Assembly: GCF_000474215.1 (NCBI RefSeq) | Contig: NZ_BAUC01000016.1 | Location: 1 to 64,000 of the forward strand | Reading direction: 5' to 3' | DNA from: Edwardsiella hoshinae NBRC 105699 = ATCC 33379 | Lineage (GTDB): Bacteria; Pseudomonadota; Gammaproteobacteria; Enterobacterales; Enterobacteriaceae | DNA length: 64,000 nt | In this document: positions 37,423 to 51,949 of the stretch, piece by piece | Position numbering within the stretch: position 1 is the first letter of the stretch | Layout of the letters: every line of letters starts with the position of its first letter | Notes under the pieces: model-generated | Seen by the model: the letters and a program-made list of their open reading frames with translations, nothing else | The model's database searches: none | Told to the model about the DNA's origin: nothing | Program-made: the position numbers and the translations under genes

Positions 37423-38202
37423 GTGAAAGCGGCAGCAATCGAAAGGCGTATGGAAATCTTCAACGTGGTGACCGCTCAAGGGAAAGCTCGCGTTGAGGAG
37501 TTAGCCGCAAGATTTAACGTCTCAAGCGTCACTATCCGCAGTGACCTGACCTTTCTGGAGGAGAACGGCTATATCGTGCGTTCGCATGGGGCGGCTATCC
37601 CGAATACCGGGGTGATTGCCGAACTGAGCGTCCACGAGAAGCGCCACCGTAATAGCGGTGTGAAATCCCAGATCGGTCTGGCGGCGGCCAAGCTGATTAA
37701 CAGCGGTGACGCGGTGATTCTGGATTCTGGTACGACGACCCGTGAGATCGCCGGGCACCTTCGGGGCTTGGAGAACGTGGTGGTCATGACTAACGGTCTG
37801 GATGTCGCCGTGGAGCTCGTCTCCTCGCCCGGTATCGAGGTAGTGTGTACCGGCGGGGTGTTACGTAAGAGCGCAATGTCTTTTTCAGGTTCGCAGGCCG
37901 AAGCCTGCTTGAAGAACTTCTGTTTCGACAAAGTTTTTCTCGGGGTGGATGGATTCGATCTGCGAGCGGGTATCACTACGCACAACGAGCAGGAAGCGAG
38001 TCTTAACCGCTTGATGTGTGAGATCTCCGATCAGGTGATCGCGGTTGCCGACTCGACCAAGTTCGGCAAGCGTGGTTACCATATGATTCGGGATTTTGCT
38101 GATATCGATATCCTGGTGACGGACTCCGGGGTGCCCGACGATTATGTCGAACGCCTGCGGGAAGCCCACGTCGAAGTGATTATCGCTGAAAAAGAGAAGT
38201 GA
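37423..38202 (+). CDS. agaR: DeoR-family regulator of the GalNAc locus (AgaR-like)
   Basis: A 259-aa DeoR/GlpR-type repressor. The winged helix is at residues 5-60 (VEELAARFNVSSVTIRSDLTFLE), and the sugar-phosphate sensor domain has DSGTTTREIA, MTNGLDVA, GGVLRKSAMSFSG and FLGVDGFD. Size and position agree with AgaR, which in E. coli represses the aga genes until an amino-sugar phosphate builds up. It starts the cluster and lies 50 bp before kbaZ. The link to GalNAc comes mainly from the neighbours. Confidence 0.88.
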   Translation: MKAAAIERRMEIFNVVTAQGKARVEELAARFNVSSVTIRSDLTFLEENGYIVRSHGAAIPNTGVIAELSVHEKRHRNSGVKSQIGLAAAKLINSGDAVILDSGTTTREIAGHLRGLENVVVMTNGLDVAVELVSSPGIEVVCTGGVLRKSAMSFSGSQAEACLKNFCFDKVFLGVDGFDLRAGITTHNEQEASLNRLMCEISDQVIAVADSTKFGKRGYHMIRDFADIDILVTDSGVPDDYVERLREAHVEVIIAEKEK

Positions 38203-38252
38203 CGCGCTGACTCCACGGTAAACCGGTCCGTGTTTATTGTGGAGTTATTTTG

Positions 38253-39533
38253 ATGCATCAGTTAGCGCAGCTTGTTCAGCGTCACAAGGCCGGTGAGCCG
38301 GTCGGTATCTATTCAGTCTGTTCCGCTCATCCGCTGGTTATCGAAGCCGCGATGGAGCAGGCGTTGCAGGATGATTCGCTCCTGCTGATCGAAGCCACCT
38401 CTAACCAGGTGGATCAATTCGGCGGTTACACCGGGATGACCCCGGTCGATTTCCGCGACTACGTGTGCCGTCAGGCCGATCTGCTGCAATTCCCGCTTGC
38501 CCGCCTGATTTTGGGGGGAGACCATCTCGGCCCCAACCGTTGGCAGCATCTGCCCGCCGCTGAGGCGATGGCCCATGCCGATACCCTGATCGCCGCCTAT
38601 GTGGCCGCCGGTTTCCAAAAAATCCACCTCGATTGCAGCATGTCCTGCGCCGATGATCCGCTACCGCTGAGCGATGCCATGGTGGCCGAGCGTGCCGCGC
38701 GTCTGGCCGCCATCGCCGAGCGCACCGCGCGTGAACAGTTTGGCCGTAGCCAACTGGTGTATGTGATCGGTACTGAAGTTCCGGTACCGGGTGGCGCTAA
38801 GGAGCACATCGATACGTTGGAAGTCACCTCACCGCAGGCGGCGCGTCAGACTATCGAATGTCACCGCGAGGCCTTTGCGCGGGCCGGCGTCGCCGACTGC
38901 TGGGAGCGGGTGATCGGCCTGGTGGTACAGCCGGGCGTCGAGTTTGACCATACTGGAGTGATCGATTTCCGTCCGCAGCAGGCCCAGGCGCTAAGCCAGG
39001 TGTTGGCGGATTACCCGCACCAGGTGTTTGAGGCACACTCGACCGATTACCAGACCGATCAAGCTTATCGTGAGCTGGTGGACAACCATTTTGCCATCCT
39101 CAAGGTTGGTCCGGCGCTGACTTTCGCCCTACGTGAGGCGTTGTTCAACCTGTGTCATATCGAAGAAGAAATGTATGCCGCAGAACAGTGCTCTGGCCTG
39201 CGCCAGGCCATCGAAACGGCGATGCTGGAGGCCCCGCAGAACTGGCAGAAATATTACAGCGGCAGCGAAGAGCAGGTGCGTTTTGCGCGTCGCTACAGCT
39301 TTAGCGATCGCATCCGCTACTACTGGCCGACGCCGGCAGTACAGGCGGCGCAGCAGAAGCTGTTCGACAACCTGACCCAGTCGCCGATCCCTTACCCGCT
39401 GCTCAGCCAGTATCTGCCGCGTGAATTCACCGCGGTGCGTGAGGGCAACCTGACGCTGCAACCCGAAGCGTTGGTCAAGGCGCACATTAAACACATTTTA
39501 TCCGGCTACGCGCAGGCGTGCTTGCGCAACTAA
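38253..39533 (+). CDS. kbaZ: tagatose-1,6-bisphosphate aldolase subunit KbaZ/GatZ type
   Basis: The non-catalytic subunit that stabilises and activates KbaY in splitting tagatose-1,6-bisphosphate to dihydroxyacetone phosphate and glyceraldehyde-3-phosphate. From the ATG at 38253 it is 426 aa, the length of E. coli KbaZ. Family segments are [40 protein letters not shown] and [18 protein letters not shown] lies 8 nt upstream. The catalytic partner KbaY is encoded 11 kb away at the far end of the locus. Confidence 0.93.
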
Positions 39534-39546
39534 TTAGGACGTGACT

Positions 39547-50401: not shown

Positions 50402-50500
50402 TTTCGCCGGGTGGAGTCACACTTTTATTGTCTTTTGAATGTTTTCTTTGTTTTATTTTAATGATTAAATGAAAGCAGATGAAGATGCGGAGGTGTGACG
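50402..50500. promoter_or_regulatory. promoter region of kbaY
   Basis: An AT-rich 99-bp gap containing GAATGTTTTCTTTG and ATGAAAGCAGATG, which resemble the T-rich AgaR site and the GAAAG words of the other promoters. No terminator is visible after the DUF2264 gene, so read-through is also possible. Confidence 0.35.
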
Positions 50501-51355
50501 ATGTTTTTGGTTTCTTCCCGGGATATGTTGCTGCAAGCGCAGGCCAGGGGCTACGCCGTACCGGCGTTTAACATTCATAACCTGGAGACCATCCAGGTGA
50601 TCGCCAAGACGGCGGCACAAATGGGCTCTCCGGTGATCCTGGCGGGAACGCCGGGCACCTTTAGTTATGCCGGCGTTGCTTACCTGGTCGATATCTGCCG
50701 CGAGGCGGCACGTGAATACCGTATTCCGTTGGCGCTCCATCTGGATCATCATGAATCCTATGAGGATATCTGTGCCAAGGTGGCGAGTGGCGTCAAGTCG
50801 GCGATGATCGATGCCTCGCATCATAGCTTTGCCGATAACGTGGCGTTGACACGTCAGGTGGTGGAGTATTGCCATCGCCTGGATTGTACCGTCGAGGCCG
50901 AATTGGGACGCCTGGTCGGTCAGGAAGATGATCTGGTGGTCGACGCGGCACACGGTAGCTATACCGATCCGACCCTGGCAGCCGAGTTCGCGCAAACCAC
51001 CGGCATCGACTCGCTGGCGATCGCCATCGGTACCGCTCATGGCATGTATAAAGAGGCTCCGCGCCTGGACTTCGATCGTCTGGCGCAGATCCGTCGCCAG
51101 ACCGAGATTCCGCTGGTGCTGCACGGCGCCTCCGGTATTCCGGATCAGGACGTGGCGCGTTGCGTGTCGCTGGGGATCTGTAAGGTCAACGTCGCTACCG
51201 AGTTGAAGATCGCCTTCTCCGACGCGGTGAAGGCTTACTTCGCCAGCCATCCTAACGCCAATGACATGCGCCATTACATGGAGCCAGGTAAGGCCGCGAT
51301 GCAACAGGTGGTCGAACATAAGATCCGTATCTGCGGCAGTGCCGGACAGTTGTAA
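50501..51355 (+). CDS. kbaY: tagatose-1,6-bisphosphate aldolase, catalytic subunit
   Basis: A zinc class II aldolase that makes triose phosphates from tagatose-1,6-bisphosphate together with KbaZ. The 284-aa sequence carries [24 protein letters not shown] with the catalytic Asp and zinc His, [21 protein letters not shown] and VLHGASGIP. The ATG at 50501 has GGAGG 7 nt upstream. A tagatose-6-phosphate kinase, which must act before it, is not encoded in this window. Confidence 0.94.
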
Positions 51356-51367
51356 GAGGAGATGAGC

Positions 51368-51949
51368 ATGACGAAGCGCGTTGCCGTACTGCTGGCGCAT
51401 GGTTTTGAAGAGGGCGAGGCGGTGGTGTTTATCGACATCATGCGTCGTCTGGACATTCAGGTCGATATCCTCTCGTGCGAAGAAAGCCTGGCATTGAATA
51501 GCTATTTTGCCACGCCGATCCAGGCCGATGCCTTATTGGCCGATCGCCAAGAGACCCTGTATGACGCGGTGATGATGCCGGGAGGGCCTCAGGGCACCGA
51601 CCGCCTCAACGCCAACGTGCAGGTCTTGGCGTTCTTGCGTCGTCACATCGCCGCCGATAAGTATATCTGCGCGTTGTGCTCCTCCGGCGCCAAGGTGTTG
51701 GCGGCGCACGGCTTACTGGCGGGCCGACGCTATAGCACCGGGGATAAGTTGGCGGAGCGTTTCGCCGACGGCGAGTATGTCGATCGCGACGTGGTGGTCG
51801 ATGGCCGCTTCATCTCGGCCAAAGGGCTGGGGGTGAGCTTTGAATTCGCCTTTACCGTGGCACGCCACTTATTGGCTGACAATGTTGCTAAGGTTGATGC
51901 TCAGGCCAGCCATATCTATTTTCGTCGTTGGCCGTTGTCTGACGATTAA
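51368..51949 (+). CDS. DJ-1/PfpI-family protein
   Basis: A 193-aa protein of the DJ-1/ThiJ/PfpI superfamily. It has the acidic residue in LAHGFEEGEAV, MMPGGPQGTDRL and the nucleophile-elbow cysteine in ICALCSSGAKVLAAHG. Members include YajL-type chaperone/deglycase proteins and isomerases. It is 12 nt after kbaY and shares its operon. The ATG at 51368 is better spaced from GAGGA than the one at 51362. Its role in the locus is unknown. Confidence 0.85.
   Translation: MTKRVAVLLAHGFEEGEAVVFIDIMRRLDIQVDILSCEESLALNSYFATPIQADALLADRQETLYDAVMMPGGPQGTDRLNANVQVLAFLRRHIAADKYICALCSSGAKVLAAHGLLAGRRYSTGDKLAERFADGEYVDRDVVVDGRFISAKGLGVSFEFAFTVARHLLADNVAKVDAQASHIYFRRWPLSDD

Follow-up and report, generated by a model that had tools for sequence, protein, structure and literature searches.

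A gene block of Edwardsiella hoshinae predicted to import and process chondroitin/dermatan sulfate disaccharides

What does a mannose-family phosphotransferase system (PTS) import when its genes, annotated for N-acetylgalactosamine (GalNAc), lie among genes for a uronyl hydrolase, a sulfatase and a DUF2264 protein? The question is raised by a block at positions 37423-51949 of contig NZ_BAUC01000016.1 of Edwardsiella hoshinae NBRC 105699, of which the first 64,000 nucleotides were analysed (hereafter the window). Profile searches with Pfam and NCBIfam identify 14 genes in the block, all on the + strand, with intergenic gaps of -23 to +183 bases and a GC content of 57.8% (58.7% in the window); the genes, the single strand and the 14.5-kb extent given by an initial annotation are all found there. 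It is very likely, in our assessment, that the block encodes the inner-membrane and cytoplasmic half of a pathway for chondroitin/dermatan sulfate (CS/DS). The initial annotation had proposed that the locus joins the aga pathway to the use of glycosaminoglycan (GAG) disaccharides, and such a pathway is well supported by gene content, gene order and co-occurrence, with catalytic specificities and transport predicted. It had also called the pathway complete-looking within the block, which does not hold: the lyases, the 4-O-sulfatase, the porin and KduI/KduD are all encoded elsewhere in the genome. From the genes, their families and order, their co-occurrence and the conserved residues described below, we infer substrates, the direction of transport, the site of phosphorylation, cell locations and regulation.

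DUF2264 and the uronyl hydrolase

The gene at 48911-50401 encodes the DUF2264 protein (PF10022, 272.2 bits against a cut-off of 25). In phmmer searches it is related to 9o4u (E 1.6e-12) and 9nwf (E 1.2e-11), structures titled beta-D-glucuronic acid dehydratase or glucuronate dehydratase, and also to 8oi4 of GH154. This former glycosidase family is described as removing water from saturated non-reducing-end glucuronate to give the substrate of GH88 enzymes (PMC12269599). Seven of seven alignable active-site residues (N176, N177, W178, F181, Y229, R285 and Y289 in the paper's numbering) are kept in the window protein as N212, N213, W214, F217, Y263, R312 and Y316; the register of this phmmer alignment is fixed by the R-to-A change printed for 9nwf, a mutant entry. 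The same seven are invariant in all 12 DUF2264 sequences aligned, window included, a subset of 17. E74, R78 and Y354 fall outside the alignment with BcGDH, for which the invariant E103 and R107 (at the same spacing) and Y377 are candidate equivalents. Moreover, the nine best Foldseek matches of an AlphaFold2 model of the protein are nine chains of 9o4u, 9nwf and 8oi4 (9o4u: E 3.7e-9, TM 0.68 by target length). These results suggest that DUF2264 is a beta-D-glucuronate dehydratase, predicted to make the hydrolase substrate from saturated disaccharides. Because no signal peptide is visible, the protein is probably cytoplasmic, and behind the PTS it would meet a 6-phosphorylated disaccharide.

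The hydrolase itself (44738-45787, start picked by eye) matches PF07470 with 252.5 bits, and at E up to 0.001 no other protein of the genome does. Among solved structures it comes closest to 4CE7 (E 6.5e-62), 5NOA and 4Q88; with 4CE7, which we take to be a GH105 enzyme, it shares the identical stretch WWWCDALFMAPP, and the other two are both titled family 88. Further structure matches are named GH105 or YteR, and none of the 10 matches at E up to 0.1 is named UGL. On these similarities the enzyme is assignable to the GH88/GH105 group, no narrower, and as previously annotated it carries no signal peptide visible by eye. It had been assumed to need an unsaturated uronate made by a lyase. A lyase is not the sole possible source of one, because DUF2264 belongs to the glucuronate dehydratase family; if DUF2264 dehydrates saturated disaccharides, a lyase would not be strictly needed for the hydrolase step.

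Both genes are present in all five Edwardsiella genomes examined. The four others, among them E. ictaluri, E. piscicida and E. anguillarum, share the same one-strand order from the PTS IIB gene through the DJ-1 gene, agaR-agaS lying partly beyond the compared stretch in three of them. Among 392 genomes of the family, 15 hold a DUF2264 of a "short" class, set by eye at about 263-285 bits and an open frame of 494-550 amino acids, which leaves out the broken partial matches in G338, G104 and G028; two of the 15 bear a second copy at 243-244 bits.

The PTS, its IID subunit and a second module

Four PTS genes precede the hydrolase gene: IIB of the mannose family (40727-41227; NF008508, 189.2 bits, cut-off 180), IIC (41267-42052; NF040757, 336.7 bits, cut-off 300), IID (42042-42932) and IIA (43001-43441; NF040761, 158.2 bits, cut-off 130). 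The agaVWEF naming of the initial annotation is thus borne out for IIB, IIC and IIA, which pass the AgaV/W/F cut-offs, and not for IID, which scores 258.6 bits against the AgaE model (NF040760) with its cut-off of 500; a typical enterobacterial IID, 46% identical, also falls short at 438.2. IIDs at least 85% identical to that of the window occur in exactly the 15 of 392 genomes with the short-type DUF2264, and the next identity is 60%, followed by values of at most 48%. In a tree of 36 hand-picked rows, 20 IIDs linked to the hydrolase and DUF2264 are split from 15 other enterobacterial IIDs with branch support of 100/100. The IID of one DUF2264 locus (L153) groups with the other enterobacterial IIDs; its branch is long, as is that of L133, and the program flags the risk of long-branch joins. 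Support is 91/95 for the chondroitin sulfate group and 90/68 for the hyaluronan group, both under the starred level. By sequence, the window IID is a separate orthogroup, not simply of the GalNAc-PTS type, and it groups with that of a second PTS-GH105-DUF2264-PL8 operon.

In the three genomes of set g46, two of which are Salmonella arizonae and diarizonae, the order IIB-IIC-IID-IIA-hydrolase-maturase-sulfatase-DUF2264 is kept together, and no full-length agaS, kbaZ, agaA or kbaY was seen in the 18-kb stretch, although these may lie elsewhere in the genome. The second operon (DeoR-IIB-IIC-IID-IIA-hydrolase-DUF2264-hypothetical-PL8), with no sulfatase in the stretch, is found in two of these three genomes, Salmonella among them, and in two inspected E. 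coli genomes. Its PL8 protein is closest to chondroitin AC and hyaluronate lyases. Both modules have a PTS, a hydrolase, a DUF2264 protein and a DeoR regulator (28% identical), and the sulfatases and GalNAc genes are confined to the first. The two probably represent a single device in a chondroitin and a hyaluronan version, the hyaluronan substrate being presumed from the genes of the second. We infer, with support from gene context, that the window PTS imports and phosphorylates a GAG disaccharide.

In E. coli at large, IID matches occur in 46 of 5426 genomes (covering 27% of the query, with 68.6% identity among the matches listed), and six of the 46 places are on plasmids. In strains SLK172 (L207) and APEC O2-211 (L208) the PTS-GH88/105-DUF2264-PL8-autotransporter operon (6750-18455) lies beside IS3-type transposase genes. 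An autotransporter gene follows the PL8 gene in both, as one also adjoins the E. hoshinae lyase genes described below. Upstream, past the IS3 element, the E. coli loci carry genes resembling those for RpiB/LacA and gluconate-5-dehydrogenase, which may serve subsequent steps of uronate use.

Lyases, sulfatases, GalNAc enzymes and regulation

A search for a lyase had been proposed as a check on the GAG hypothesis, and the same genome indeed encodes two adjacent PL8 genes, on contig C78. Both proteins have Lyase_N, Lyase_catalyt, Lyase_8 and Lyase_8_C, all above cut-off; the first scores 1380 bits against Proteus chondroitin ABC lyase I (1hn0; residues 10-1022), and the second 466 bits against chondroitinase 2q1f. 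Their sequences place them close to chondroitin ABC lyases I and II. Two such lyases characterised from Edwardsiella tarda degrade chondroitin sulfate and not hyaluronan (cited in PMC8306027). The C78 lyase genes are neighboured by genes for an autotransporter, an OmpG-type porin, a sulfatase with a twin-arginine translocation (Tat) signal and a LysR regulator; the autotransporter gene (13881-15980 of stretch L034) lies between the lyases and the porin. In Proteus hauseri the Tat sulfatase, the porin, both lyases, the hydrolase and the aga genes are all inside 18 kb. PF09093 lyases occur in 13 of the 392 family genomes, every one among the 15 with short DUF2264 (Fisher's exact test, P = 1.5e-22 counting genomes and 8.9e-9 counting genera, both uncorrected for descent). 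For the uronate product, the E. hoshinae genome encodes KduD and two homologues of KduI, one of them adjacent to KduD on contig C66.

A wider comparison drew on 80 named DUF2264 loci, with stretches of at most 10 kb on each side. Eleven with DUF2264 below 42.5% identity, none of which has a hydrolase, PTS or sulfatase match at the set thresholds, were counted apart, leaving 69. Lyase homologues are present in 19 of the 69, and four (L116, L146, L150 and L156) have no hydrolase, PTS or sulfatase match; stretch L176 lies outside the locus and has no matches in it.

In the window, a radical SAM/SPASM anaerobic sulfatase maturase (anSME; 45971-47212; TIGR03942, 510 bits, cut-off 349.45) is followed by a Cys-type sulfatase (47221-48843; PF00884; Cys113 in CGPSR) with a signal-like N-terminus, read by eye. 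PB_3285 takes 6-O-sulfate off reducing-end GalNAc (PMC8819143). Peptides encoded by the published primers for PB_3285 (QGTAEQPN, AYVATPV, CG and SRAGMLTGR around the active site, ILTVSAQ), which are short and not the full sequence, are similar to Photobacterium proteins in the orthogroup of the window sulfatase at their start, active site and end. Because of this likeness the window enzyme is probably also 6-O-specific, a predicted GalNAc-6-O-sulfatase acting on reducing-end GalNAc; the C78 sulfatase, related to the CS/DS 4-O-sulfatase 6J66 (E 3.4e-236), is probably 4-O-specific. Phosphorylation at C6 by a PTS has been described as suiting unsulfated disaccharides (PMC6837340). A 4-O-sulfate would not block C6, and an exported C6-sulfatase would free the C6 hydroxyl for the PTS, thus solving that constraint.

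Homologues of the 4-O-sulfatase show a twin-arginine motif by eye in eight of 10 loci (L103, L147, L149, L170, L171, L172, L174 and L175), and no frame with the searched motif was found in L113 and L115. No signal peptide is reported for PB_3262 in PMC8819143; the start codon given there may have been placed downstream of the true one.

The remaining genes of the block include those for GalNAc-6-phosphate. At the head of the block are agaR, a DeoR-family repressor gene (37423-38202; NF040755, 389.5 bits, cut-off 260), kbaZ for the non-catalytic subunit of tagatose-bisphosphate aldolase (38250-39533; NF012002, 797.8 bits, cut-off 707) and a gene of the agaS family, a putative galactosamine-6-phosphate deaminase/isomerase (39541-40743; TIGR02815, 530.4 bits, barely above the cut-off of 529.2). 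After the PTS genes comes an N-acetylhexosamine-6-phosphate deacetylase of AgaA/NagA type (43419-44600), a Pfam amidohydrolase that passes the NCBIfam nagA model (TIGR00221, 279.3 bits, cut-off 225.65), so that "agaA" is a name by context. The catalytic aldolase subunit is kbaY-like (50495-51355; TIGR01858, 491 bits, cut-off 443.55) and lies below the narrower KbaY model NF009375 (385.9 bits, cut-off 542). The last gene, of the DJ-1/PfpI family (51362-51949; PF01965, 102.6 bits, below NCBIfam cut-offs), has counterparts accompanying kbaY in 11 of 16 relatives' stretches, adjoining it in eight and about 1.5 kb off in three.

The half-site CTTTC[GA], a motif picked after viewing the sequence, occurs five times upstream of agaR (0.46 expected from shuffles), five times upstream of anSME (0.38), once upstream of kbaY (0.15) and three times in the C78 gap between the sulfatase and LysR genes (0.55), and in none of the other six gaps, including those upstream of a lyase gene, the autotransporter and the porin. 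These counts are suggestive only. A scan with an AgaR operator consensus gave six sites in the window (0-3 in five base shuffles) and seven in L034 (0-1 in the shuffles); all had 4-5 mismatches and formed no pattern at promoters, and the scan was not used. Elsewhere in the window, two tRNA-Lys genes of identical anticodon lie at 72-147 and 313-388.

A proposed pathway, its alternatives and its meaning

Taken together, these genes probably form the following route. The chondroitin ABC lyases I and II of C78 would cut the polymer to disaccharides, which the porin may admit to the periplasm. Outside the inner membrane, the Tat-signal 4-O-sulfatase and the exported window sulfatase (probably 6-O), both activated beforehand by the window maturase, would strip sulfate, the latter exposing the hydroxyl at C6 of GalNAc. 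Uptake of the disaccharide and its phosphorylation at this C6 would then fall to the mannose-family PTS. In the cytoplasm, the GH88/GH105 hydrolase is predicted to split an unsaturated disaccharide-6-phosphate directly, and DUF2264 would first convert saturated ones, from chain ends or host hydrolases, to that unsaturated form by removing water. GalNAc-6-phosphate would be turned into triose phosphates by the deacetylase, AgaS and KbaYZ, the deoxy-uronate would be processed via KduI/KduD, and AgaR would repress the gene set.

Several observations weigh against this assignment. Confidence in the DUF2264 model is moderate (pLDDT 72.4), and the rmsd between the model and the GH154 chains is 4.3-6.5 Å. 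The nearest hydrolase structure, 4CE7, is an unsaturated rhamnoglycuronyl hydrolase and not a GAG enzyme, and among the 69 DUF2264 loci the hydrolase is detected in 31 and the IID in 34, in stretches that end at 10 kb or a contig edge. The closest solved structures to the window sulfatase are carrageenan sulfatases, so that 6-O specificity rests on the short PB_3285 peptides; the genome carries four further PF00884 genes; and the window enzyme has no counterpart in a Budvicia stretch and eight Pasteurellaceae stretches, so that not every such locus includes C6 desulfation. No CTTTC[GA] half-site lies directly upstream of the lyase genes. The two of the 15 short-DUF2264 genomes that fall outside the 13, both of genus g91, hold the block without a PF09093 or PF02278 lyase, the two families searched there (PF02278 to E up to 1); they may scavenge what the host or other organisms produce. 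The same two genomes (G203 and G341, the latter Providencia rustigianii; L083, L077, L172 and L173) hold the uptake block together with a 4-O-sulfatase homologue.

Could DUF2264 act otherwise, for example as a C5 epimerase for iduronate, a beta-glucuronidase or a lyase? GH154 was originally filed as a glycosidase, and dermatan sulfate epimerase 1 and lyases of PL8 and PL17 are among the weak fold matches (E > 0.0009); against this, every alignable catalytic residue of the dehydratase is identical and invariant and the best fold matches are all GH154-family chains, and we hold such an activity to be unlikely. It is more doubtful still that the PTS imports free GalNAc only, with disaccharides split in the periplasm or entering by another transporter and the linkage to hydrolase and DUF2264 otherwise caused. 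The scores of IIB, IIC and IIA and the GalNAc-6-phosphate genes of the block would fit such a PTS, but neither the hydrolase nor DUF2264 shows a signal peptide by eye, the IID is far under the AgaE cut-off (which a typical IID misses too) and in a separate tree group, and the PTS-GH105-DUF2264 triad persists without adjacent full-length agaS, kbaZ, agaA or kbaY in the g46 genomes and the second operon. A target other than a GAG, for instance arabinogalactan side chains, an ulvan-like polysaccharide or a different glycan with uronates, is suggested by the closeness of the hydrolase to 4CE7 and 5NOA and by the founding GH154 member BT_3677, active on methyl-glucuronide and not on chondrosine; we regard this as very improbable, since chondroitin ABC lyases, the 6J66-like 4-O-sulfatase and GalNAc-6-phosphate genes travel with the set. 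CS/DS disaccharide use is the reading we prefer.

The enterobacterial aga/kba GalNAc regulon shares agaR, kbaZ, agaS, the PTS, the deacetylase and kbaY with the block, and we know of no lyase, sulfatase, uronyl hydrolase or DUF2264 in it; the 15 other enterobacterial IIDs fall in another tree group. The GAG-PTS cluster of Streptococcus agalactiae likewise imports an unsaturated GAG disaccharide by a mannose-family PTS for cytoplasmic hydrolysis, with phosphorylation argued by its authors to be at C6; it serves unsulfated hyaluronan with a UGL hydrolase and, in that account, no dehydratase is mentioned, whereas Edwardsiella adds sulfatases and the predicted dehydratase (PMC6837340). In Bacteroides caccae PUL25, a chondroitin lyase likewise works in a cascade with a uronyl hydrolase and a glucuronate dehydratase of the former GH154, but in a Bacteroidetes locus with PL35, GH88 and GH109, the main text of the source not using the words PTS or phosphotransferase (PMC12269599). 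Hyaluronan loci of Vibrio alginolyticus and Enterobacter asburiae combine a PL8 lyase, a PTS and a GH88-annotated hydrolase, with no sulfatase listed in these sources and no DUF term in PMC8222515 (PMC8222515, PMC11432990). For haloarchaeal GAG plasmids, PTS or ABC import is mentioned by the authors, the archaeal locus itself having an ABC transporter (PMC13260240). In the open-access literature we found no paper on this locus, nor on product uptake and use by such bacteria. New here are the predicted role of DUF2264, the separate IID orthogroup and a sulfatase that would free C6.

Beyond Edwardsiella, we give an even chance to a widespread gammaproteobacterial "dehydrate-then-hydrolyse" GAG module, in which a disaccharide PTS would be joined to a cytoplasmic dehydratase acting on 6-phosphorylated saturated disaccharides and to a GH88/GH105 hydrolase, the chondroitin version gated by an exported C6-sulfatase and the hyaluronan version without sulfatase. 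The locus gives testable roles to DUF2264, to an AgaVWEF-annotated PTS and to a sulfatase, and suggests how a PTS can serve sulfated GAGs, PTS import having been contrasted with ABC import (PMC6837340). Proteus chondroitinase ABC is a common reagent, and chondroitinases may contribute to fish cartilage lesions according to the E. tarda genome paper (PMC2764856). If the proposal is true, Gram-negative enteric and fish bacteria could feed on GAG fragments made by lyases and by host hydrolases.

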